A stretch of DNA of 12,413 bases from Candidatus Omnitrophota bacterium (GTDB taxonomy: Bacteria > Omnitrophota > Gorgyraeia > Gygaellales > Profunditerraquicolaceae): positions 1 through 12,413 of the forward strand of contig JAGVOR010000129.1 in assembly GCA_020052635.1 (NCBI GenBank), written 5' to 3'. Every line of letters begins with the position of its first letter. Within the stretch, counting starts at the first letter, position 1. Position numbers and translations under genes: made by a program. The notes under the pieces are model-generated. The model did no database searches. It was not told the DNA's origin and saw only the letters and a list, made by a program, of their open reading frames with translations. Positions 2,634-11,936 of the stretch are shown here, one piece after another.

Positions 2634-3026
2634 GTGAAACTAATTACCAGAAATACGGATTATGCTTTAAGGGCGATTTGTTATATCGCCCAACAGGATA
2701 AAGTAGTGGCCGTTACTGAATTGGTTAAGGTTTTGGGTGTGCCGCGCCCTTTTCTGCGCAAGATCCTGCAGCGCTTGAGCCAAAAGAGAATACTTGAATC
2801 TTATAAAGGCCAAGCCGGAGGTTTCAGGCTCAAAGGCCAGCCGCAAAAGATTTTTATCATTGAGGTCATGCGTGTTTTTCAGGGAGAGATCGCCCTTAAC
2901 GGGTGTTTTCTGAACAAGCACGTCTGTCCTAATAAAGGTAAGTGTATTTTGAGAAAAAAGATCAAACTGATCGAGGATGATGTATTTACGCAGCTTAAGC
3001 GGATTAATATTGCTTCGTTAATTTAG
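2634..3026 (+). CDS. Rrf2-family Fe-S transcriptional regulator
   Basis: A 130-residue protein of the usual Rrf2 length. The N-terminus KLITRNTDYALRAICYIA and the winged helix-turn-helix that follows (VTELVKVLGVPRPFLRKILQRL, about 27-48, then the wing with KGQAGGFRL near 58-66) are typical of the family. Three cysteines, C91, C98 and C104 (C-x6-C-x5-C), correspond to the cluster-binding cysteines of IscR and NsrR, so it probably binds an Fe-S cluster and responds to NO, O2 or Fe-S status. Start GTG 2634 is chosen because AGGAGG lies at 2623-2628 and the conserved N-terminus begins here. It heads the operon containing hcp, a common target of NO-sensing Rrf2 proteins. Autoregulation through the dyad at 2456-2478 is inferred. 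Confidence 0.9.
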   Translation: MKLITRNTDYALRAICYIAQQDKVVAVTELVKVLGVPRPFLRKILQRLSQKRILESYKGQAGGFRLKGQPQKIFIIEVMRVFQGEIALNGCFLNKHVCPNKGKCILRKKIKLIEDDVFTQLKRINIASLI

Positions 3027-3035
3027 GGGTTAAAT

Positions 3036-3902
3036 ATGGCCAAGAGAAAGATTATTACGATTGATGAGAAAAAATGTAACGGCTGCGGTTTATGTATTCC
3101 CAATTGCCCGGAAGGGGCAATCCAGATTATTGACCAGAAGGCCCGCCTGATCAGCGATTTATTCTGCGATGGCCTGGGGGCCTGTATTGGCCATTGCCCG
3201 CAGGGGGCGATCAGTATTGAAGAGCGGGAAGCCGTCGCTTATGATGAGAAAAAGGTTATGTCGAATATTGTTAAGCAGGGCAAAAATACGATTAAGGCGC
3301 ATCTTTTGCATTTAAAAGAGCATAATGAACACAAATATTTGCAACTGGCACTGGATTATCTGCGCGAGCAAAAGATTGAGAATCCCCTGCTTGCAGAAGC
3401 GCCAGCTGTTTTAAAAAATGAGCATGCTTTGGGCGGTTGTCCCGGCTCCAGGGCATTTGATTTCCGGCAGCCGCCGGTTCAGGCCCAAGGTGAGCAAACG
3501 GGAAAACGGCCATCCGAGCTGCGGCAGTGGCCTCTGCAGCTGCACCTTATTTCTCCCCAGGCGTCGTATTATCAGAAAGCCGACCTGCTTCTGGCTGCCG
3601 ATTGTACGGCTTTTACCTTGGGTGATTTTCACAAAGATTATTTAAAAGGGAAAGCTTTAGCAATTGCCTGCCCTAAACTGGATCAGGATAAAGATGTTTA
3701 CGTGGAGAAGCTTATTGCTTTGATTGATGAAGCGCTGATCAATACCCTGACCGTAATTATTATGCAGGTTCCTTGCTGCGGCGGCTTGGTTGCTATTGCC
3801 CAGCAAGCGCTGGATCAGGCTAAAAGAAAAATTCCCATTAAAACTGTCATTGTCAGTCTGCAGGGAGAGATCCTTTCTGCGGAATGGGTGACGGCTAAAT
3901 AA
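3036..3902 (+). CDS. Ferredoxin-like Fe-S protein with cysteine-rich C-terminal domain
   Basis: A 288-residue probably cytoplasmic electron-transfer protein. Residues 10-62 form a dicluster ferredoxin domain. Cluster I has C14-x2-C17-x2-C20-x3-C24-P. In the second motif C44, C50 and C54-P are present, but the middle position (L47) is not cysteine, so the second cluster may be 3Fe-4S or have another ligand. The rest (about 70-288) has further cysteines in GGCPGS (C135), AADC (C190), ACPKLD (C212) and VPCCGG (C247, C248), which look like metal or cluster ligands. I know similar proteins near hcp genes in anaerobes but no established function. It begins 9 nt after rrf2 with a weak AGGGGT SD overlapping the rrf2 stop. 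A role as electron donor for Hcp, replacing Hcr, is an inference. Confidence 0.8.
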   Translation: MAKRKIITIDEKKCNGCGLCIPNCPEGAIQIIDQKARLISDLFCDGLGACIGHCPQGAISIEEREAVAYDEKKVMSNIVKQGKNTIKAHLLHLKEHNEHKYLQLALDYLREQKIENPLLAEAPAVLKNEHALGGCPGSRAFDFRQPPVQAQGEQTGKRPSELRQWPLQLHLISPQASYYQKADLLLAADCTAFTLGDFHKDYLKGKALAIACPKLDQDKDVYVEKLIALIDEALINTLTVIIMQVPCCGGLVAIAQQALDQAKRKIPIKTVIVSLQGEILSAEWVTAK

Positions 3903-3904
3903 CG

Positions 3905-4060
3905 ATGAGTTGGGATTGTCCGCATAATGATAAAGGCCGCTGTTTAAAGGCAGGTGGTACTTGTAAGCCGGGTAAAAAGGGGTGTGTTTTAAGGGGAAGG
4001 GTGCGTTTTATCGGCGAGAACAGAGAGGAAGATAATGAGCAACTGCCCGGGTCAAGATAA
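3905..4060 (+). CDS. Small Cys4 protein of unknown function
   Basis: A 51-residue ORF starting 2 nt after the ferredoxin stop codon. Cysteines at 5, 13, 20 and 27 (C-x7-C-x6-C-x6-C) in a basic, Gly/Lys-rich context (CPHNDKGRC, GGTCKPGKKGCVLRG) suggest a small zinc- or Fe-S-binding fold. It overlaps the HD-domain gene in another frame: that gene starts at 4035, inside codon 44. The C-terminal tail past about residue 38 is polar and may be mostly a consequence of the overlap. No separate strong SD is visible, so translation is probably coupled to the preceding stop. The regular Cys spacing, tight packing and matching strand argue that it is a real gene. It could be an accessory of the adjacent Fe-S protein; that is a guess. 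Confidence 0.7.
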   Translation: MSWDCPHNDKGRCLKAGGTCKPGKKGCVLRGRVRFIGENREEDNEQLPGSR

Positions 4061-4748
4061 GCGCAAGGTCACTCCGCAGGCGGTTTTTTGTCCAGCCTGT
4101 GGCTGCGAAACCGAGATGTTCTCCGATGAAATTAAGGCCAGCTGTCCTAAATGCCGCAAGGTTTTCTACCGGGAAGTTTTACCCGCCTGCATCGACTGGT
4201 GCGCTTCGGCTAAGGAATGTATCGGCCAGCAGGCATACGGTGAATATATAATAAATAAGTCACTTTTATTAAAAGATAAATTGCTGTTTGAACTGAAAGA
4301 ACATTTTGGTACTGATCTAAAGCGGATAAATCATGCCAGAAGAGTTCTGGATTATGCGGAGGAGATTTTACGCCGGGAGGGCGGGGACTGGCAAATTGTT
4401 GTTCCGTCAGCCATACTGCATGATGTGGGGATCAAGCCGGCTGAGGAGAGGTATGGCTCATCCGCCGGGCATTTACAGGAGAAGGAGGGCCCGGAAATAG
4501 CCAGGAAAATCCTGCTCAAGCTAGGATTTAAAAAAAATGAGATTGAAGAGATCTGCCAGATTGTCGCGCATCATCATTCACCGGGAAAGATCAATACGCT
4601 GAATTTTAAGGTTTTATACGACGCGGACTGGTTAGTAAATTTAAAAGACGAAGTGGATATTGAGGATAAGATTAAGGTCAAAGGGATCATTGAAAAAGTA
4701 TTTTTAACTAAAACCGGCAAAGGTATTGCTTGTCAGCTGTATCTTTAA
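4035..4748 (+). CDS. HD-domain phosphohydrolase with N-terminal zinc ribbon
   Basis: A 237-residue protein of two parts. Residues 17-45 hold a ribbon-like CPAC/GC (C19, C22, C24) and CPKC (C37, C40) pair, followed by three more cysteines (C52, C56, C62). Residues about 85-235 form an HD domain: H100 (INHARRV), the HD dyad H129-D130 (AILHDVGI), the HHH at 179-181 (VAHHHSPG) and D196/D198 (YDADWL), the order expected for a divalent-metal phosphohydrolase. Relatives act on nucleotides or signalling nucleotides, and the substrate here is unknown. The start ATG 4035 is preceded by AGAGG (4024-4028) and sits inside the end of the small Cys4 gene. It lies 15 nt before hcp, so it belongs to the redox-stress operon; metal or cluster sensing by the Cys region is conceivable. 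Confidence 0.8.
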   Translation: MSNCPGQDKRKVTPQAVFCPACGCETEMFSDEIKASCPKCRKVFYREVLPACIDWCASAKECIGQQAYGEYIINKSLLLKDKLLFELKEHFGTDLKRINHARRVLDYAEEILRREGGDWQIVVPSAILHDVGIKPAEERYGSSAGHLQEKEGPEIARKILLKLGFKKNEIEEICQIVAHHHSPGKINTLNFKVLYDADWLVNLKDEVDIEDKIKVKGIIEKVFLTKTGKGIACQLYL

Positions 4749-4763
4749 AAAAAGGAGGAGCAA

Positions 4764-6059
4764 ATGTTTTGCGATCAATGTGAACAGACAGCGGGGGGTA
4801 CGGGGTGTACGACGAGAATGGGCACCTGCGGCAAGGATGAAGATATCCATAGTTTACAGGATACCCTGGTTTATGGGTTAAAGGGAATCGCCGCCTATGC
4901 TTATCACGCCCGGCAGTTCGAAGCCCGCGATGAAGAAGTGGATGCTTTTATGCACGAAGCGCTTTTTACTACTTTGACCAACGTCAGCTTCGATTTAAAC
5001 CAGCATCTGGCGATGGTTTTAAAATGCGGGGAAATGAATTTGAAGATTATGGAGCTTTTGGATAAGGTGCACGTGGAGAATTTCGGTAATCCTGTGCCGA
5101 CAGCGGTGGATACCGGAACCAGAAAAGGCCCGGGCATACTAGTTACCGGCCATGACCTGCTGGATTTGCAAGAGATACTTAAGCAAACCGAGGGGACGGG
5201 AATTAATATTTACACGCATGGGGAAATGCTTCCTGCCCACGCTTACCCGGAGTTAAAAAAATTTAAGCATCTGGCGGGCAATTACGGCGGGGCCTGGCAG
5301 GAGCAGAGGAAAGATTTCAATGCTTTTCCGGGAGCGATCCTGGTCAATACTAATTGCGTGATGACGCCTCAGGCGGGTACTTATCTTGACCGGCTTTTTA
5401 CTTGTAATGTTGCCGGGGTCCAGGGCGCTGCGCATATTAAAACCCGGGATTTTTCCGCGCTCATTCAAAAAGCTAAAACATTACCTTCATTGCCGGAGGC
5501 TAACGGCCAGAAAATTATGACCGGATTCCACCATACGGCGATTTTGGGGTTAGCGGATAAAATCGTTGGGGCGGTAAAAGCAGGAAAAATTAAAAGGTTT
5601 TTTTTAATCGGCGGTTGTGACGGCGCGCGTCCCGGGAGGAATTATTATACTGAATTTGCCGAGAAGGTTCCTCAGGATTGCGTAATCCTGACTTTGGCTT
5701 GCGGAAAATACCGTTTCAATAAGCTGGAGTTTGGTGCGATTGACGGTATTCCGCGCCTGATCGATATCGGGCAGTGCAATAATGCCTATTCGGCAATCCA
5801 AGTCGCCCTGGCCTTGAGCAAGGTATTTAATTGTTCGGTAAATGAATTACCGATCTCTTTTGTGCTTTCCTGGTTTGAGCAGAAGGCCGTGGCAATTTTA
5901 CTGACGCTTCTTTACTTGAACATTAAGGGAATCCGCCTGGGGCCGACCCTGCCGGCGTTTATCTCCAAAAACGTGCTTAACGTATTAGTGGAAAAGTTTG
6001 ATATTAAACCCGTTACTACTGTGGATGCGGATTTAGAACAGGCGCTTAAGGGCAAATAG
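4764..6059 (+). CDS. hcp: Hybrid-cluster protein (hydroxylamine/NO reductase), short form
   Basis: A 431-residue cytoplasmic Hcp. The N-terminal cluster ligands are C3, C6, C15 and C22. All eight expected ligands of the hybrid 4Fe-2S-2O cluster can be placed: H130 (TGHDLLDL), E154 (HGEMLP), C198 (TNCVM), C285 (GGCDGARPGR), C313 (LACGKYRF), C338 (GQCNNAY), E372 and K374 (WFEQKA). Classical Hcps are about 540-550 residues; this one lacks the helical segment of roughly 110 residues between the N-terminal cluster and the hybrid-cluster domain, as in the class III proteins known from thermophiles and archaea. Hcp reduces hydroxylamine in vitro, and in E. coli acts as an NO reductase giving N2O. 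SD AAGGAGG is at 4752-4758. No Hcr with a fused 2Fe-2S domain is present; the ferredoxin-like protein or the FNR-like flavoprotein may supply electrons. Confidence 0.95.
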   Translation: MFCDQCEQTAGGTGCTTRMGTCGKDEDIHSLQDTLVYGLKGIAAYAYHARQFEARDEEVDAFMHEALFTTLTNVSFDLNQHLAMVLKCGEMNLKIMELLDKVHVENFGNPVPTAVDTGTRKGPGILVTGHDLLDLQEILKQTEGTGINIYTHGEMLPAHAYPELKKFKHLAGNYGGAWQEQRKDFNAFPGAILVNTNCVMTPQAGTYLDRLFTCNVAGVQGAAHIKTRDFSALIQKAKTLPSLPEANGQKIMTGFHHTAILGLADKIVGAVKAGKIKRFFLIGGCDGARPGRNYYTEFAEKVPQDCVILTLACGKYRFNKLEFGAIDGIPRLIDIGQCNNAYSAIQVALALSKVFNCSVNELPISFVLSWFEQKAVAILLTLLYLNIKGIRLGPTLPAFISKNVLNVLVEKFDIKPVTTVDADLEQALKGK

Positions 6060-6070
6060 TCTGAATTCGA

Positions 6071-6098
6071 TTGTAAACCCGGCAAAAAGCCGTATAAT
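6071..6098 (+). promoter_or_regulatory. Promoter of the superoxide reductase gene
   Basis: A perfect TATAAT at 6093-6098 with TTGTAA (6071-6076, four of six matches to TTGACA) 16 nt upstream, in the 65-nt gap between hcp and the superoxide reductase gene. The spacer contains a small CGGC/GCCG hairpin (CCGGCAAAAAGCCG). Transcription would begin near 6105, leaving a leader of about 20 nt. This suggests that the sor-rubredoxin-tpx block can be expressed independently of the rrf2-hcp unit. Confidence 0.55.
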
Positions 6099-6124
6099 AA
6101 ATATCAAATTATCAGGAGGTAAAC

Positions 6125-6520
6125 ATGGCGAATATAGGGGATTTGGTGCAGTCCGCAGACTGGAAGGCCGAAAAGCATGTCCCGGTCATTGAGGGGCCGG
6201 ATAAAGCAGCCGCCAGCCAAGCGGTTAATCTTGAGGTTAGCGTAGGTAAGCAGATCGCGCATCCCAATACCACCGAGCATCATATCCGGTATATTGAGGT
6301 ATATTTCTTGCCTAGCGGTGAAAAATTCCCCTATCAGCTGGGGCGTTTTGAATTTAACGCGCATGGCGAATCCGTCCAAGGGCCTAATACCAGCTCGATC
6401 TTTTCCGAGCCAAAAGCCGTGGTTACTTTTAAGGCGGCTAAAAGCGGAACAGTGATGGCGCTGGCCTATTGCAATATCCATGGCCTCTGGAGAAGCGAAA
6501 AAGAATTGAAGGTGGAGTAA
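6125..6520 (+). CDS. Superoxide reductase (neelaredoxin type, 1Fe)
   Basis: A 131-residue cytoplasmic superoxide reductase that reduces superoxide to hydrogen peroxide without making O2. The catalytic iron ligands are visible: H18 in EKHVP, H46 and H52 in AHPNTTEHH, C116 and H119 in CNIHGLW; E16 and K17 of the EKHVP loop are the usual active-site helpers. The N-terminal desulforedoxin domain of desulfoferrodoxin is absent, so this is the single-iron type and needs an external donor, normally the rubredoxin encoded two genes downstream. SD AGGAGG at 6114-6119 fixes the start. It has its own predicted promoter. Its peroxide product would go to Tpx, as no rubrerythrin or catalase is seen here. 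Confidence 0.93.
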   Translation: MANIGDLVQSADWKAEKHVPVIEGPDKAAASQAVNLEVSVGKQIAHPNTTEHHIRYIEVYFLPSGEKFPYQLGRFEFNAHGESVQGPNTSSIFSEPKAVVTFKAAKSGTVMALAYCNIHGLWRSEKELKVE

Positions 6521-6537
6521 GCGGACCAAATTAATTA

Positions 6538-6628
6538 CACCCGGCGTTTATCGGATTTACGCCGGTGCGTCCTTTGTGGACAGACACCCGACGCTAATTG
6601 GAATTGCGTCGGTGCGCCCTTTCTGGGC
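6538..6628. repeat. Tandem hairpin element: two A-B modules
   Basis: Two similar units follow one another. Unit A1 (6538-6567): CACC-C-GGCGT, 11-nt loop TTATCGGATTT, ACGCCGGTG. Unit B1: GTCC (6569-6572), TTTGT, GGAC (6578-6581). Unit A2 (6585-6614): CACC-C-GACGC, loop TAATTGGAATT, GCGTCGGTG. Unit B2: GCCC (6616-6619), TTTCT, GGGC (6625-6628). In both A units the left arm has one extra C, a conserved bulge. Arm differences between A1 and A2 are compensated on the opposite arm. The element ends 2 nt before the SD GGAGG (6631-6635) of the membrane protein gene. A related element lies at 11551-11700. Function unknown: structured mRNA leader or dispersed palindromic repeat. Confidence 0.8.
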
Positions 6629-6640
6629 AGGGAGGAAAGT

Positions 6641-7030
6641 ATGTGTATGCAAAAGTTGCCGCAGTTAATGGCGGTTGTGCCGATCTCGGTTTTATTGACC
6701 GTGAGTTTTTTCGTGCTCGTGGTGATCCGCAAAATTGAGGAAAAAGGGTTAAGGGCGTTTGGTTATGTTGTAGCCGGATTACTTTGGCTGGCCGCCCTGG
6801 TAGTTTTCGGGGCAGCGGCCTTTGGTTTAGGTAAAGACGGACTGGGGGCAAAAAAATACCGTTCGCCAAGATCGCAAATGCAGATGGGCGCTATGCCGCC
6901 GCAGATGATGCATCCGGATGGTGCGGCAGTAATTAACCCTTCTGCGGGGACGCCGCAAATTAAAGCCGTAAAAAGATCAGGATGTTCTAGCTGCTCAGGG
7001 AATAAAGGCGTAGTTACCAAAAAAGAATAG
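6641..7030 (+). CDS. Small membrane protein with Met-rich and CxxC tail, unknown function
   Basis: A 129-residue protein with two hydrophobic helices, about 8-29 and 39-63, joined by a short charged loop (RKIEEKG), then a soluble tail. The tail has a methionine cluster with histidine (M80, M82, M85, M89, M90, H91; motif QMQMGAMPPQMMH) and near the end SGCSSCSGNKG with C115 and C118. Met/His clusters and CxxC pairs are typical of copper or other soft-metal binding, but no known family is recognised. Start ATG 6641 follows GGAGG at 6631-6635; ATG 6647 is an alternative. It lies directly downstream of the tandem hairpin element and 16 nt before rubredoxin, between superoxide reductase and its presumed donor, which suggests a role in the same redox system. 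Confidence 0.75.
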   Translation: MCMQKLPQLMAVVPISVLLTVSFFVLVVIRKIEEKGLRAFGYVVAGLLWLAALVVFGAAAFGLGKDGLGAKKYRSPRSQMQMGAMPPQMMHPDGAAVINPSAGTPQIKAVKRSGCSSCSGNKGVVTKKE

Positions 7031-7046
7031 CCAGGGAGGATAACCA

Positions 7047-7208
7047 ATGAGTAAATATAAATGTTTAGTTTGCGGTTATATCTATGATCCTAAAATCGGA
7101 GATCCGGATAACGGCCTTGCCCCGGGCACAAGCTTTGAGGATCTTCCTGCTGATTGGGTCTGCCCGGAATGCGGCGTCGGTAAAGATCAGTTTGAGAAAA
7201 TCGCTTAA
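7047..7208 (+). CDS. Rubredoxin
   Basis: A 53-residue rubredoxin: [15 protein letters not shown] at the N-terminus and [16 protein letters not shown] at the C-terminus provide the two CxxCG-type loops (C6, C9, C39, C42) that hold a single Fe(SCys)4 centre. The conserved [16 protein letters not shown] segment between them is canonical. It is a one-electron carrier in the cytoplasm, and is the usual donor to superoxide reductase and to flavodiiron proteins, both encoded in this window. SD GGGAGGA (7034-7040) precedes the ATG. The gene ends where the SD of tpx begins (AAGGAG at 7207-7212), so the two are tightly linked. Confidence 0.95.
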
Positions 7209-7221
7209 GGAGATTTAAATA

Positions 7222-7779
7222 ATGTCCAGGACAGTTAAATTCAAAGGTGCGCCTTTAACTTTAACCGGGAAAATAGCCAGGGTAGGCAAACGGGCGCCGG
7301 ATTTTAAGTTGATTTCACCGGATTTAAAAGAGGTAAGTTTAGCGGATTTTACCGGCAGGATAAAGGTGATTAATTTTTTTCCTTCATTGGATACCCCGGT
7401 TTGCGACTTGCAGGTTAAAGAATTCAATAAAAAATCCGCGGGGCTTTCATCGGAAGTAGTAGTGATCGGGATCAGTAAGGACTTGCCCTTTGCCCAGGCC
7501 CGTTTCTGTTCGGCGCATGAGATTAAGCAGGAGGTTGTGCTTTCGGATTACCGGTTCTCTTCTTTCGGTTTAAACTACGGGGTACTGATCAAAGAATTAA
7601 ATCTTTTGGCCAGAGGCGCTTTGATTATTGATCAGCAGGATTGTCTCAGGTACATTCAGCTGGTTGATGAAATAACCCAGGCGGTTAATTTCAGTGAAGT
7701 GTTTGATAGCTTACAGAAAGTAATAAGCTCTCCGGCAGTAATTAGAAAGCCATGGGGTGGTTGTGTCTGTGGGAAATAA
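7222..7779 (+). CDS. tpx: Thiol peroxidase (atypical 2-Cys peroxiredoxin) with CxC tail
   Basis: A 185-residue Tpx. The peroxidatic cysteine is C61 in SLDTPVCDLQV (canonical SxDTPVC) and the resolving cysteine C96 in QARFCSAHE; the VGKRAPDF and NFFPSLDT segments are typical. Tpx reduces hydrogen peroxide and alkyl hydroperoxides and is recycled by a thioredoxin-type protein; the glutaredoxin encoded at 10332 is a candidate. The protein is about 15 residues longer than usual (E. coli Tpx has 168), with the extra part at the C-terminus ending KPWGGCVCGK (C181, C183). A CxC near the terminus could be a disulfide relay or metal site. The start ATG 7222 has AAGGAG at 7207-7212 overlapping the rubredoxin stop. 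Confidence 0.93.
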   Translation: MSRTVKFKGAPLTLTGKIARVGKRAPDFKLISPDLKEVSLADFTGRIKVINFFPSLDTPVCDLQVKEFNKKSAGLSSEVVVIGISKDLPFAQARFCSAHEIKQEVVLSDYRFSSFGLNYGVLIKELNLLARGALIIDQQDCLRYIQLVDEITQAVNFSEVFDSLQKVISSPAVIRKPWGGCVCGK

Positions 7780-7781
7780 AA

Positions 7782-8486
7782 ATGCCTGTAGAAATTAAAG
7801 TTAAAATTAAAGAGATTATCCGGCGGACCTATAATGTCAAAAGTTTCCGTCTGGAGACCCCGGGTATTCTGGAATTTAAGGCCGGCCAATTTCTTTCGGT
7901 TAAACTTAAAGGCAACGAGCAGCTAAAAAGATACCTTTCCATCTCCAGTTCCCCCACCGAAACGTGCTATCTGGAGTTTACTAAAAAATTAACGGAAAGC
8001 GATTTTTCAAAAACTTTGGACAGCTTAACCGCCGGCGATGAAATAGAGGTGCAGTATCCTTTCGGGAAATTTGTGCTCGATGAATCTTTCCCGAAGATCG
8101 CTTTTTTGTCCGGCGGAATCGGAATTACACCTATCCGCAGCATCTGTAAATACGCGGTAGACAAAAATCTTGGCAGCGACCTGGTTTTGCTTTATGCTAA
8201 TCGTTCGGTAAGGGATGTGGTGTTTAAAGAAGATTTTGACGCGATGGTGAAGAGTTACTTTCGGCTGAAGGTGGCGCATGTTTTGTGTGAAACCGAGCCG
8301 GGTTTTAAATGCACCGTCGGCAGGATTAATGCCGGAGTGATCAAGAATGAGATCCCGGATTATGCCCACCGGAAATTCTATCTTTGCGGCCCGCCGCTGA
8401 TGGTGGAGGCGATGAAAAAGATATTGACTGAAGAGTTAGCGGTTACAGCTGAAATGGTAGTGACCGAGAACTTCCAGGGTTATTAA
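7782..8486 (+). CDS. Ferredoxin-NAD(P)H reductase-like flavoprotein
   Basis: A 234-residue FNR-family oxidoreductase. The FAD-binding motif is RYLSISSSP (50-58, the RxYS type), with a beta-barrel before it; the NAD(P)-binding half begins at SGGIGITPIRS (110-120) and includes YLCGPPLMVEAM (200-211). It ends in an aromatic tail, ENFQGY. No 2Fe-2S ferredoxin domain is attached, unlike Hcr or phenol-hydroxylase reductases. Likely role: pass electrons from NAD(P)H to rubredoxin (7047) for superoxide reductase and the flavodiiron protein, or to Hcp. ATG 7782, 2 nt after the tpx stop, is preferred: the conserved domain starts right after it. An in-frame ATG at 7752 inside tpx would add 10 unlikely residues. 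No strong SD is seen, so translation is probably coupled to tpx. Confidence 0.87.
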   Translation: MPVEIKVKIKEIIRRTYNVKSFRLETPGILEFKAGQFLSVKLKGNEQLKRYLSISSSPTETCYLEFTKKLTESDFSKTLDSLTAGDEIEVQYPFGKFVLDESFPKIAFLSGGIGITPIRSICKYAVDKNLGSDLVLLYANRSVRDVVFKEDFDAMVKSYFRLKVAHVLCETEPGFKCTVGRINAGVIKNEIPDYAHRKFYLCGPPLMVEAMKKILTEELAVTAEMVVTENFQGY

Positions 8487-8510
8487 CAATGGAAAAAATT
8501 TTTAAAGAAG

Positions 8511-8637
8511 CTCCGACTCAGTAGCACGAAAAAATTCTCTAGAATTTTTACGATTCGTCGGAGTAAGTTCGCAGACGCCCGCCATAAAATGCGGCGGGCT
8601 ATAACTTACGTCAGCACAAAGTGCTGACGTAAGTTAT
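8511..8637. repeat. Cluster of three hairpins upstream of the flavodiiron gene
   Basis: Hairpin 1 (8511-8563): outer arms CTCCGAC / GTCGGAG enclosing an AT-rich inner stem AAAAATTC-TCTA-GAATTTTT (8530-8549). Hairpin 2 (8577-8599): GCCCGCC, 9 nt, GGCGGGC. Hairpin 3 (8601-8637): a perfect 17-bp stem starting ATAACTTACGTCAGCAC with loop AAA. GTAAGTT at 8563-8569 is complementary to AACTTAC at 8603-8609, so an alternative fold enclosing hairpin 2 would compete with hairpin 3. The last hairpin ends 10 nt before the SD of the flavodiiron gene. It may be an attenuator-like leader, a terminator region between transcription units, or a fragment of a palindromic mobile repeat. This 172-nt gap contains no convincing gene. 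Confidence 0.75.
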
Positions 8638-8658
8638 CTGCTCATTTAGGAGGGGTTT

Positions 8659-9846
8659 ATGGCGGCGATTGAAATATTACCTAAAATATATTCGGTGGGG
8701 GTGGTTGATTGGGGGGTGCGCAACTTTCACGGCCATACTTATACTACCAGCAGAGGGTCAAGCTATAATGCTTATCTTATCGTCGATGAAAAGATAGCCC
8801 TGGTTGATGCCGTCGCCGCCCCGTTTGCCCAAGAGTTGATCGATAATATCAAAGAAGTCGTCCCGCCGGAAAGAATCGATTACATCATTGCTAACCACGT
8901 GGAGACCGACCATTCCGGAGCCCTGCCGGCCGTTCTGGCGCTTTGCCCTAAAGCCAAGGTTTTGGGTACCGCTAAATGCCAGGAAGGGTTGTATAAACAT
9001 TATTATCAAAACTGGGATTTTCAAACCGTTAAAACCAATGATCAGTTAAAACTCGGGCAACGGAGTTTGAGTTTTATCGAGGCGCCGATGATCCATTGGC
9101 CGGATAGCATGTTTACCTATTGCCCGCAGGACCAATTGCTTCTGCCTAATGATGCCTTTGGCCAGCATTTCGCTTCCAGCGCCCGGTTTGATGATCAGGT
9201 CGATCAGTGCGCATTAATGGATGAGGCAGAAAAGTATTACGCCAATATCCTTTGGCCTCTGGGCGCGGTGATCCTTAAGAAGATCCAGGAGATCCAGAAA
9301 TTAAACATTCCGATTAAAATGATCGCCCCCAGCCACGGAGTAATCTGGCGCCGGGATCCGGCTAAAATTATCAATGCCTATCTTGGTTGGGCCAAGGGCG
9401 AGGTGAGAGATAAAGTTGTTGTAGTTTATGAAACTATGTGGGGCTCATCCGAACAAATGGCCAGGAAAATAGTCGACGGTTTAGCCTCCGTTGGAATTGA
9501 GGTTAAGCTGTTTGATGTGGCACAAAGCGACCGCACGGAAATAATCACCCAGATGCTTTCGGCCAAAGGTTTTTTATTCGGTTCCTCCACGCACGATAAC
9601 GATATGTTGCCCAATATCGCCGCTTTCCTGGAGATTGTCAAAGGCTTAAAACCCAAGGGTCGCCGGATAGGTTTTTTTGGTTCCTATGGCTGGGCCGGCG
9701 GCGCGCTTAAAGAGATGCAGGATTTGCTTAGCAATTGCGGGACCCAGGAGACTTTGCCGGCCCTGGCGGTTAAGTATGTCCCGGATACCGCTGAATTAGC
9801 GGGCTGTTTTGAATTTGGGGTTAAATTCGCCCAGAGCTTAAAATGA
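8659..9846 (+). CDS. Flavodiiron protein (A-type flavoprotein, O2/NO reductase)
   Basis: A 395-residue class A flavodiiron protein. The metallo-beta-lactamase-like domain (about 1-250) carries the diiron ligands in the standard register: H80, E82 and D84 in NHVETDHSG, H146 in MIHWPDS, D165 in PNDAFG and H226 in PSHGVIW. The flavodoxin domain (about 253-395) binds FMN through TMWGSSEQ (259-266) and GSYGWAGG (341-348). Such proteins reduce O2 to water or NO to N2O with electrons from rubredoxin, which is encoded in this window. No extra C-terminal rubredoxin or flavin-reductase module is fused. SD AGGAGG at 8648-8653 supports ATG 8659. Its stop overlaps the start of the next gene by 4 nt. Preference for O2 versus NO cannot be read from sequence, but the Hcp and Rrf2 context makes NO reasonable. 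Confidence 0.95.
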   Translation: MAAIEILPKIYSVGVVDWGVRNFHGHTYTTSRGSSYNAYLIVDEKIALVDAVAAPFAQELIDNIKEVVPPERIDYIIANHVETDHSGALPAVLALCPKAKVLGTAKCQEGLYKHYYQNWDFQTVKTNDQLKLGQRSLSFIEAPMIHWPDSMFTYCPQDQLLLPNDAFGQHFASSARFDDQVDQCALMDEAEKYYANILWPLGAVILKKIQEIQKLNIPIKMIAPSHGVIWRRDPAKIINAYLGWAKGEVRDKVVVVYETMWGSSEQMARKIVDGLASVGIEVKLFDVAQSDRTEIITQMLSAKGFLFGSSTHDNDMLPNIAAFLEIVKGLKPKGRRIGFFGSYGWAGGALKEMQDLLSNCGTQETLPALAVKYVPDTAELAGCFEFGVKFAQSLK

Positions 9847-10313
9847 AACCGATACCCGAACCAATAATTAATTTTTTGCGTTCCCAGAGCTTTGTGATTG
9901 TTTCTTCAATCGACCCCAACGGGTTTCCGCACAGTTCTTGCAAGGATATCGTTAAAATCGAGCCGCAAGGCAAGATTTACCTGATCGATGTTTACCAGGG
10001 CTTGACCATCAAGAATATCCTGCTTAATCCGCAGGTAAGTATCAGCGCGGTAGATGAGCATAAATTTATGGGTTTCTGTCTGAAGGGTAAGGCCGGCATG
10101 CTGGAGGATAAAATCAACCAGGAGATGATTAAGGCCTGGGAGGACAAGATTACCTCCCGCCTGGCCAAAAGGCTCTTAAGAAACTTGACTCAGGATCAGG
10201 GCCAGCGGCATCATCCGGAGGCCAGCCTGCCACATCCTAAGCAATTGATTCTGCTGGAGGTGGAAGAAATTCTTGATCTTGCCCAACACCATTTAAAAAA
10301 GCACGCGTTATAA
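9843..10313 (+). CDS. PNPOx-like FMN-binding protein
   Basis: A 156-residue protein with the split-barrel fold of the pyridoxamine 5'-phosphate oxidase-like family. The N-terminal SQSFVIVSSIDPNGFPHSSCKDIVKI (split across 14-39) and KIYLIDVYQGLTIKNILLNPQVSISAVD (44-71) are the typical strand and FMN-phosphate-binding regions. The region 82-112 is a helical insertion, and the Lys/His-rich C-terminus is poorly conserved. It starts within the stop of the flavodiiron gene (ATGA, 9843-9846), so the two are translated together. In Moorella the flavodiiron protein pairs with a separate flavin/rubredoxin reductase (Hrb); this gene may be a functional counterpart, though it is from a different flavin-binding family and has no rubredoxin domain. 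That role is inferred from coupling only. Confidence 0.8.
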   Translation: MKPIPEPIINFLRSQSFVIVSSIDPNGFPHSSCKDIVKIEPQGKIYLIDVYQGLTIKNILLNPQVSISAVDEHKFMGFCLKGKAGMLEDKINQEMIKAWEDKITSRLAKRLLRNLTQDQGQRHHPEASLPHPKQLILLEVEEILDLAQHHLKKHAL

Positions 10314-10331
10314 GCAAGGTAAGGAGGGAAT

Positions 10332-10571
10332 ATGGCTAAAAGCGTAAAAGTTTACAGCACCTCAACCTGCCCCTGGTGTATCCGCGCCAAACAATTTTTA
10401 AAAGAGAACAACATCGAATTTCAAAACCTGGATGTTTCCGGCGATCAGCTGGCAGCTGATGAGATGATGGCTAAAACCGGGCAGATGGGGGTTCCGGTTC
10501 TGGATATCGACGGGGAAATTATTGTCGGCTTTGACAAAGAAAGAGTCAAATCAGCCTTAGGATTAGCATAA
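10332..10571 (+). CDS. Glutaredoxin-like protein (YruB type)
   Basis: A 79-residue thioredoxin-fold protein. The active site is C13-P-W-C16 in STCPWCIRAKQFL, the cis-proline lies in MGVPVL (52-57), and the C-terminal part reads VGFDKERVKSALG, typical of the YruB/NrdH-like glutaredoxins of anaerobes rather than of glutathione-dependent ones. In Clostridium pasteurianum a similar small protein works with a TrxR-like flavoprotein (the Cp9/Cp34 pair). Here the flavoprotein follows directly. The likely job is to carry electrons to a disulfide target such as Tpx. SD AAGGAGG at 10321-10327 supports the start. Confidence 0.92.
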   Translation: MAKSVKVYSTSTCPWCIRAKQFLKENNIEFQNLDVSGDQLAADEMMAKTGQMGVPVLDIDGEIIVGFDKERVKSALGLA

Positions 10572-10592
10572 TTTTATTTGCGGCGGCAGCTT

Positions 10593-11513
10593 ATGATGAA
10601 GATTTACGATTTAATTATTATCGGAGCCGGTCCGGCCGGGATTACCGCCAGTGTTTATGCAGCTAGAAAACAGCTGGATTTTTTAGTCATTAGTATAGAC
10701 GTCGGCGGACAAACCGCCTGGAGCGGCGAAGTAGAAAATTATACGGGATACCAGTTTATCAGCGGCCCGGAGCTGGCGCAAAAATTTGAGGAGCATTTGC
10801 ATAAATTCAAGACGCCGCTTAAAGAAAATGAAGAGGTTCTCGCCCTGGAAAAAACCGATTCGCTCATCCGGGTTAAAACCAGCCGCAGCGATTATCAGGC
10901 CCATAGCGTTATTATCGCCAGCGGGAAAAAATCCAGAGAGCTGATGGTGGAGGGGGAGAAGGAATTCAAAAATCGTGGCTTAACTTATTGTGCCACTTGC
11001 GATGGCCCGCTATTTGCCGGCAAAGTCGTAGCGGTCGTCGGCGGAGGTAACTCTGCTTTGGACGCGGCCCTGCAGTTGATGAAGATTGCCAAGCAGGTTT
11101 ATGTTATCAATAACACTGCCGCTTTAACCGGGGATGCGGTGATGCAAGATAAGATCGTGCAGGCCACCAACACGACAATTTTTAATAATACTTTAGTCAC
11201 CGCGGTCTTAGGGGATAAATTTGTTAACCGGATTAAAATCAAAAACCGCAATCAGCAGGAGGAGTTGGCGGTGGCAGGAGTATTTGTGGAGATCGGTCTG
11301 GTGCCTAACTCCGGTTTTGCTAAAGGGGTCAATAAAAATTCCCAAAACGAAATTATCGTCGATGCGCGCAACCGGACAAATATCGAAGGTGTTTTTGCTG
11401 CCGGGGATGTGACGGATGTGCCGGAGAAGCAGATCATTATTGCCGCCGGAGAAGGCTCTAAAGCCCTCTTAAGCGCATTTCATTATTTATCAAGAAATAA
11501 TTTTAGCGATTAG
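10593..11513 (+). CDS. AhpF-like / thioredoxin reductase-like FAD disulfide reductase
   Basis: A 306-residue flavoprotein with FAD-binding GAGPAG (11-16), redox-active C133-A-T-C136, the NAD(P)-binding GGGNSA (150-155) and a C-terminal FAD contact in FAAGDVTDVPEKQIIIA. The thioredoxin reductase signature for NADPH (HRRxxxR) is missing: the corresponding stretch reads VINNTAALTGD, and the C-terminal half resembles AhpF, which uses NADH. It lacks the AhpF N-terminal domain, which the neighbouring glutaredoxin may replace. Start uncertain: ATG 10593 (or 10596) puts the usual few residues before the Rossmann strand; a TTG at 10578 would add five. No clear SD precedes any of them, so coupling with the glutaredoxin 21 nt upstream is likely. 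Confidence 0.88.
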   Translation: MMKIYDLIIIGAGPAGITASVYAARKQLDFLVISIDVGGQTAWSGEVENYTGYQFISGPELAQKFEEHLHKFKTPLKENEEVLALEKTDSLIRVKTSRSDYQAHSVIIASGKKSRELMVEGEKEFKNRGLTYCATCDGPLFAGKVVAVVGGGNSALDAALQLMKIAKQVYVINNTAALTGDAVMQDKIVQATNTTIFNNTLVTAVLGDKFVNRIKIKNRNQQEELAVAGVFVEIGLVPNSGFAKGVNKNSQNEIIVDARNRTNIEGVFAAGDVTDVPEKQIIIAAGEGSKALLSAFHYLSRNNFSD

Positions 11514-11550
11514 GGATTTATGGTAAAATAAAGATAATAGTTTGGTATTA

Positions 11551-11700
11551 CGCAGTGATTGACTGCGCCCGGCGTTTATGCGGAATCACCCGACGTTAAT
11601 CGGAATTACGTCGGTGTGGCCTTGTGGCCTATGCGCCGGTTCACCCGGTGAGGGTGACACTTGGCCTATCCGATAGGCCAAGGGGCTAGCCCTTCTGGGC
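11551..11700. repeat. Complex hairpin cluster with related A-B modules
   Basis: In order: CGCAGT-GATTG-ACTGCG (11551-11567); a left arm CCGGCG that can pair with CGCCGG ending near 11639; within this, unit A3 (11587-11616) CACC-C-GACGT, loop TAATCGGAATT, ACGTCGGTG and unit B3 GGCC-TTGT-GGCC (11618-11629); then TCACCC-GGTGA-GGGTGA (11641-11657); a perfect 10-bp stem CTTGGCCTAT-CCG-ATAGGCCAAG (11660-11682); and GCCC-TTCT-GGGC (11689-11700), matching unit B2 of the element at 6538-6628. The SD GGAGAGG (11701-11707) of the NifU-like gene follows at once. No protein reading of this 200-nt gap is convincing. Function unknown. Confidence 0.75.
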
Positions 11701-11714
11701 GGAGAGGAATAAAC

Positions 11715-11936
11715 ATGAGAGAAAGAATCGAAAAAGCGCTGGATAAGGTCAGGCCGATGTTAATGGCAGATGGCGGAAATGTGGAATTAGTGGAGGTTAC
11801 CGCGGACGGAATCGTGAAGTTGAAGTTGAAAGGCAGCTGCGGCTGCTGCCCGATGAGCTCGATGACCTTAAAGAACGGGATCGAAAAAATCTTAAGGCAA
11901 GATGTTCCGGAGATCAAAGAAGTTATTGCCTTATAG
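11715..11936 (+). CDS. NifU C-terminal-domain (Nfu-type) Fe-S scaffold/carrier
   Basis: A 73-residue protein that is entirely the NifU C-terminal domain: [16 protein letters not shown] near the N-terminus (13-28) and the cluster-binding C42-x2-C45 in [18 protein letters not shown], followed by the conserved amphipathic helix and ...[10 protein letters not shown]. An extra cysteine (C44) lies within the CxxC. Such proteins bind a 4Fe-4S cluster between two monomers and deliver it to target enzymes. The start ATG 11715 is chosen because SD GGAGAGG (11701-11707) precedes it and the family begins here; longer in-frame readings would run into the hairpin cluster. In this operon it may help assemble or repair the Fe-S proteins encoded upstream, which are damaged by O2 and NO; this is inference. 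Confidence 0.9.

Follow-up and report, generated by a model that had tools for sequence, protein, structure and literature searches.

What are the small hairpins that precede genes in this stretch of DNA, structured elements of the messenger RNA or pieces of mobile DNA? The window, i.e. the whole stretch of 12,413 nucleotides analysed here, comes from a Candidatus Omnitrophota bacterium (GenBank assembly GCA_020052635.1, contig JAGVOR010000129.1), and a preliminary description of its letters had noticed paired hairpin modules, A and B, offering exactly these two options. Based on the comparison of many copies, we consider it probable that A-B is a non-autonomous mobile palindromic element of about 47 bp, which inserts at Shine-Dalgarno sequences (SDs).

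The A-B unit of about 47 nt consists of hairpin A, with a bulged C and a near-constant 11-nt loop, and hairpin B, whose stem is hypervariable in sequence and nearly perfectly paired. Three A units were found on the forward strand at 6538-6567, 6585-6614 and 11587-11616, with the arms, the extra C in the left arm and the near-constant loop that had been described; the A stem is, however, two pairs longer than described, owing to an outer CA/TG beyond the bulged C. The first copy begins 17 nt past the stop codon of the desulfoferrodoxin gene and reads CAC(C)CGGCGT / ACGCCGGTG around the loop TTATCGGATTT (model match 1.8e-9, model seed). It is followed by the B hairpin GTCC tttgt GGAC at 6569-6581 (arms 6569-6572 and 6578-6581). 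With a period of 47, the second A (6585-6614; model match 7.2e-11, seed) and its B hairpin GCCC tttct GGGC at 6616-6628 (arms 6616-6619 and 6625-6628) complete a tandem pair. One base further lies the SD GGGAGG (6630-6635), followed by the ATG at 6641 of an ORF (6641-7030) without Pfam match. Site 1 (6538-6628) is hence a tandem pair within the 120-nt gap between the desulfoferrodoxin gene (stop codon 6518-6520; PF01880) and this ORF.

Site 2 (11569-11707), on the same strand, is a composite. An outer A (11569-11639; arms CCGGCG at 11569-11574 and CGCCGG at 11634-11639) carries in its loop an inner A-B unit, composed of the third A (11587-11616; model match 3.5e-11, seed) and the B hairpin GGCC ttgt GGCC at 11618-11629 (arms 11618-11621 and 11626-11629). 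Three more hairpins occupy 11642-11700, namely CACCC/GGGTG (11642-11656), TTGGCCTATC/GATAGGCCAA (11661-11681) and a last, B-like GCCC ttct GGGC (11689-11700), which adjoins the SD GGAGAGG (11701-11707) before the ATG at 11715 of a NifU-domain gene (PF01106). Both the nesting of the third A and the ending of both sites at an SD had been overlooked. When folded as RNA, positions 6536-6632 gave z = -2.4 (3 of 200 shuffles were equally good) and positions 11555-11702 z = -2.9; folded as DNA, the former reached z = -4.0 on the top and -4.8 on the bottom strand. No curated Rfam family overlaps either site up to E=5; the earlier description had not recognised the module as a known riboswitch or repeat family. 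From 2634 to 11936 the window holds a run of genes resembling an oxygen/iron-sulfur defence by Pfam matches: Rrf2, Prismane, desulfoferrodoxin, redoxin, flavodiiron-type, pyridine nucleotide reductase and NifU.

Are these units peculiar to the window? A search for further copies in the genome and its relatives revealed a large family. The genome itself (1.09 Mb in 199 contigs, 69% complete) yielded 18 BLAST hits at E<=10 and 14 at E<=0.05. With a covariance model, R1, built from 12 copies all of this genome, we obtained 34 matches at E<=1: 27 are distinct places with E<=0.0025, the 12 seeds included, and at least three others repeat such a palindrome on its opposite strand. All 13 genomes of the genus that were searched in this step carry between 4 and 53 matches (E<=0.1; some counted on both strands), while 2 of 8 genomes from other families carry 2-3 at the same threshold. 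At the level of the order, a match at E<=0.001 was obtained in 91 of 128 genomes, covering 48 of 75 genera, and 37 genomes show none. In a draw from the phylum, 46 of 285 genomes match at E<=1e-5, all 46 from the same class, though the draw may have included few others; the distribution is very uneven, a single distant genome (G261) holding 19. A pattern scan of named genomes returned 107 stretches, and the 80 listed are all from Omnitrophota (Velamenicoccus was checked). The spread of A-B is wide, patchy and uneven, with G009, G106 and G112 among the genomes rich in copies, and the unit behaves as a dispersed short palindrome outside genes.

Where do the copies lie? They occupy the coding strand, and their B hairpin adjoins the SD of the following gene; the SD as the likely landing site is the key point that the first inspection had missed. 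Immediately 3' of B comes an AAGGAG-like SD, and A is often preceded by the purines AAG or AAGG as well. In a pattern-selected set of 111 exact copies, 99 of which have enough flank, an SD with a start codon lies within 80 nt downstream in 72 of 99 cases; the opposite strand gives 6 of 98, and points chosen at random give 97 of 555. The distance to the start codon is 19-34 nt in 62 of these 72 copies and 50-74 nt in the other 10, as an extra hairpin or unit would yield. A set selected by the model gave the same picture. From the 142 listed matches of four genomes it took 114 sites, one of which lay too close to an edge, and a downstream SD and start were present in 86 of 113 cases versus 3 of 113 on the other strand; B was recognisable in 104 of these sites and adjacent to the SD in 77. 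At the other 27 sites the rule applied here detects no gene start; they include neighbours of tRNA genes (L067, L085; partly by eye) and a copy within a reading frame (L136).

We then restricted the count to the 120 sites having both an upstream stop codon on the same strand and a downstream SD with start. The position upstream of SDs, which had been proposed as a check, is borne out in detail: in 95 of the 120 the end of B falls no more than 1 nt from the SD, where a uniform insertion between stop and SD predicts 28.1, and in the subset with a gap of at least 20 nt this holds for 42 of 65 sites versus 2.4 expected. The distance from the upstream stop codon, for its part, varies from 0 to over 190 nt. 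The downstream genes are unrelated (82 proteins form 70 clusters) and, by reading of their sequences, encode among others ribosomal proteins, ClpC, DnaN, IlvC, CarB, GlyA, RibH, GroEL and SMC. Part of this SD adjacency could be due to harmless insertions having survived, or to selection for a function in the leader. Individual loci add further observations. One A-B copy (L136 / L323) lies within an 874-codon stop-free frame and resembles a palindromic insert in a protein-coding gene, and a Group I intron (RF00028; L085 4916-5173) is found near an A copy and tRNA genes. In the B variants of L077 (identical to L053), L048 and L357 the 3' arm equals or nearly equals GGAGGA; here, the SD itself may sit in the B stem and could be masked.

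Is the element present in front of the same gene in related genomes? At orthologous sites it is either present or absent: filled copies lie in or directly before the SD tract, and orthologues have the SD without the element. Upstream of dnaN, among 19 loci read (22 fetched; one genus), 14 are empty and 5 filled (G102, G009, G006, G113 and G106), each with A-B directly before the SD; the nearest DnaN relatives of the filled G102, which are G008, G103 and G005, are empty. Upstream of ribH, A occurs in 2 of 25 loci read (26 fetched; one genus). Upstream of rplT, of 25 loci read (26 fetched), 7 carry A (two of them degenerate or composite), 5 carry an unrelated repeat, termed C, and 13 carry neither (one with a possible A remnant); both A and repeat C directly precede an AGGAG-like SD. 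The empty sites keep an intact SD, and the filled ones show a clean insertion of 45-48 bp with an SD again downstream. Two pairs display this most cleanly, L378 with CTAAAATAAGG-(A-B ending AC)-AAGGAG versus CTAAAATAAGGAG in L070, and L388 with GTGGTAA-(A-B)-GGAGG versus GTGGTAAGGAGG in L061. An all-against-all comparison of flanks had returned at least 104 empty and at least 272 filled pairs, many of them duplicate or weak, and we used instead a reduced list of 35 sites with an alignable partner missing that copy. Since several of the 35 partners are distant or only one tandem unit apart, the claim rests on L378/L070, L388/L061, dnaN, ribH and rplT. The rarity of filled sites among relatives suggests gain rather than loss.

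Copies also interrupt other elements. A copies break up another repeat (L297 versus L316, L109 and L236), and a match to the FMN riboswitch (RF00050, 82 bits; L031 1300-1572) contains two A-like copies in reverse orientation. As to the junctions, among 149 non-tandem sites whose B is perfect the last three bases before A are AGA in 58 and AGG in 18; AAG occurs within 6 nt left of A in 64 of 114 sites, and the right flank is (A)AGGAG. Between 0 and 4 bp of AAG/AAGG are repeated on both sides, varying between sites; since A is repeatedly preceded by AAG or something close to it, this two-sided repeat may either be a short duplication of the target or belong to the element. The idea of AGGAG as an obligatory target was abandoned, because some copies have AAG alone on their right and nested copies have AATT.

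Of the two options originally put forward, the mobile palindrome is supported by the dispersed, tandem and nested copies, the copies inside an FMN riboswitch and the empty sites, the RNA element being the less likely of the two. None of the outcomes named in advance as contradicting the proposal was encountered (an absence of further copies, an absence of covariation, a known RNA family), and no known transposon end was found either. We infer that an enzyme acting in trans would recognise hairpin A, by its near-constant loop and bulged C, and insert the unit at AAG or AAGG. Copies landing between stop and start codon would be tolerated because the SD stands again 3' of them, and would accumulate as tandem, nested and composite arrays. 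Their stems keep pairing while the sequence turns over, which would take either selection of the hairpin as a transposition substrate or template-switch repair of the palindrome. The likeness to the ends of IS200/IS605 elements makes a single-strand mechanism of the HUH type the first guess: the constant orientation, the insertion at a purine motif, the two hairpins with a bulge and the variable or absent duplication suggest, by analogy, a single-strand HUH transposase supplied in trans. On this reading, a regulatory role is neither needed nor excluded.

How strictly is the pairing maintained? Among the seeds (11 distinct), 99.0% of the cells pair as compared to 90.4% in shuffles, 0 of 500 of which reach the seed result; five of nine pairs show double-sided changes and none a one-sided change. 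In 117 matches from four other genomes (86 distinct), aligned by a fit to the model and hence biased towards it, 98.2% are paired versus 91.0%, with 51 double-change cells versus 18.5 after shuffling (0 of 500); three pairs vary on one side only and slid controls fall to 22-54% pairing. For B, 192 of 198 copies pass a lenient pairing rule, and 1067 of their 1106 cells are Watson-Crick, 14 G-T, 11 A-C and 14 others. There are 36 different perfect B stem sequences, and the 4-nt loop mostly ends in GT. The stems of A and B hence covary beyond shuffled and slid controls, as had been claimed, both in the seeds and in other genomes, and the seeds, the larger set and the B stems all support a maintenance of structure, which had been read as selection on structure.

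Such maintenance could also arise by mutation alone, as quasipalindrome correction by template switching can keep stems perfect without selection. The nearly exclusive Watson-Crick pairing of B, with many perfect sequences and few wobble intermediates, and the fast change of B against 97%-identical flanks in L313/L306 both fit this mechanism. It fails, however, to explain the constant A loop, the dispersal and the SD placement, so that we regard it as a possible yet rather unlikely explanation on its own, and at most as a compatible addition to the insertion of a mobile palindrome.

A second alternative retains the RNA element, i.e. A-B would be a selected cis-regulatory RNA in 5' leaders and intercistronic gaps (a ribosome standby site, a protection of mRNA ends or a protein-binding loop), duplicated because it is useful. 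The constant spacing from the start codon (19-34 nt in 62 of 72 copies), the near-constant A loop and the many housekeeping genes downstream agree with such a role; against it, the downstream genes are unrelated, most orthologues examined lack A-B and an unrelated hairpin repeat occupies the same spot. Within one genus and for three genes, the element is not conserved at orthologous genes (5 of 19 for dnaN, 2 of 25 for ribH, 7 of 25 for rplT). Where both orthologous sites are filled (16 pairs, some from one locus), B shows 11 compensated changes and 1 single change, which favours such a role, but A shows 6 compensated and 8 single ones, a count at odds with strict selection for pairing in A once it has inserted. 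A strand test for selection on RNA versus DNA gave a weak signal of 30 G-T versus 16 A-C pairs over A and B, stemming mostly from A: on the top strand, A stems have 16 G-T versus 5 A-C in copies chosen with an RNA model, whereas B stems (14 versus 11) show no clear bias. Finally, the predicted accessibility of the SD is the same with and without the element (mean 0.53 versus 0.52 over the 112 sites that conform to a fixed layout, p=0.30), which would fit tolerance rather than regulation. Together with the lack of an Rfam match, this leaves the RNA element as an unlikely rival.

Could A-B be a REP element, moved by RAYT-like (TnpA-REP) proteins of these genomes? Y1 genes (PF01797) are present in all 27 of 27 genomes of the genus, and of five Y1 proteins scanned, four are nearer to the REP-associated model than to the IS200 model, below its cut-off, and one is an IS200/IS605 transposase over the cut-off. 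A-B shares with REPs a hairpin with a bulge and a high copy number. Two further hints are weak: a degenerate A-like match (E=0.59) lies about 0.8 kb from the broken Y1 gene of the window's own genome, and G101 has a Y1 gene with an A copy 2.6 kb away, just outside the fetched stretch. However, in 40 of 71 Y1 matches whose regions were fetched (203,860 bases), an A copy occurs in 1 of 40, at 2.3 kb, and no autonomous relative combining a Y1 gene with the same ends was seen in these 40 of 71 regions with the A model alone. By a loose text test with no chance control, words belonging to a different palindrome, GGGGAC and GTCCC, stand within about 1 kb in 13 of 26 Y1 regions. REPs are tagged with GTAG or CGTC according to PMC3733652; within 6 nt left of A, GTAG occurs at 2, CGTC at 0 and AAG at 64 of 114 sites, i.e. 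A-B has no such unpaired tag at one end. For the two families plotted in PMC3733652, same-direction REPs are placed close to where the upstream gene ends (its 3' end) and at variable distance to the next gene, which is the opposite of the A-B placement. The RAYT/REP partnership is hence unsupported by 40 of 71 Y1 regions and the flanks of 26, where no RAYT gene flanked by the repeat was found, and, given the tag and the inverted placement, we consider it very unlikely.

In the course of this comparison we observed that diverged RAYT-like genes share a leader motif of their own, GTTAGA-N(8-22)-CGTC(A/C/T)(A/G)TT, in 16 of 26 regions (L183, L184, L189-L192, L196, L198-L200, L203, L205, L211, L214, L217 and L221), with 40 matches in all loci examined, duplicates included. 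Transcription terminators or chance palindromes, for which only the GC-rich hairpins would speak, can practically be dismissed, as by eye no T-run follows the hairpins, these lie between same-direction genes directly before an SD, and the copy numbers and E-values contradict chance.

Is the SD a target of A-B only? Repeat C (TCATTTTTCCCC..GGGGAAAAATGA) is an unrelated two-hairpin repeat with 30 strand matches in loci fetched for other purposes (L070, L076, L105, L109, L158, L236, L241, L243, L307, L318, L354 and L396). As its word is palindromic, the 30 matches amount to about 15 places, 13 of them ending in GAGGAG before a start codon. The window itself contains a further hairpin composite, family D, at 8505-8650 (RNA fold z=-7.6), which ends in CTCATTT directly before AGGAGG and the ATG (8659) of the flavodiiron-type gene. 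Family D-like pieces were seen by eye or pattern in L008, L009, L037, L107 and L245, and of six pattern matches the window's own is the only one adjacent to an SD. Whether Omnitrophota carry several unrelated two-hairpin families that land at, and regenerate, the SD, and so rewrite the leaders of housekeeping genes, with the ribosome-binding site as a safe harbour for mobile DNA, we judge to be evenly balanced.

Mobile palindromes of small size are generally reported from the ends of genes and from other gaps that tolerate them. If insertion of A-B at the SD is the right reading, its landing at the ribosome-binding site, in gaps of same-direction genes and ahead of essential ones, would represent a new logic of targeting. 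We found no description of the A-B repeat or of SD-targeting palindromes in the open-access literature, though they may be described elsewhere, and as far as this literature shows, the SD as target choice of short mobile DNA appears to be new. The loci would then offer a natural series of leader variants before one gene and a precise motif for seeking the enzyme. More generally, covarying hairpins in front of genes, for which regulatory RNA is the customary interpretation, could on this reading turn out to be mobile DNA.

How does A-B compare with known systems? The MIRU of mycobacteria and the Correia/NEMIS elements are likewise intercistronic mobile repeats, but differ in sequence, size and target. 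MITEs of the DDE type have terminal inverted repeats that pair together, whereas A and B are separate hairpins and the ends of the unit are unpaired in the folds. The ends of IS200/IS605 elements resemble A-B in having two hairpins, one of which carries an extrahelical base; insertion next to a short motif with little or no target duplication may be a further common trait. A-B differs as a unit of about 47 bp, with no gene and no autonomous relative identified. A guide-sequence logic is set out for IS200/IS605 in PMC8266576. REP/BIME elements of the GTAG and CGTC families, as PMC3733652 and PMC8266576 describe them, resemble A-B as short dispersed palindromes, some with a bulged stem, in dimers or clusters, with a conserved short motif beside the hairpin, and are thought to be moved in trans; CGTC families also occur without a known dedicated transposase. 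A-B differs from these in lacking the GTAG or CGTC tag, in its tie to the SD of the downstream gene, in its regular pairing with a second, hypervariable hairpin and in not being found to flank RAYT-like genes. The BOX, RUP and SPRITE repeats of pneumococcus are, according to PMC3049150, small mobile repeats that cluster and apparently insert into each other, one of them forming a composite with T box riboswitches; they are overrepresented between convergent genes, gaps between cotranscribed genes being less tolerant, whereas the main home of A-B is the gap between same-direction genes. We therefore file A-B under the known kind of mobile palindromic repeats, and not as a REP.
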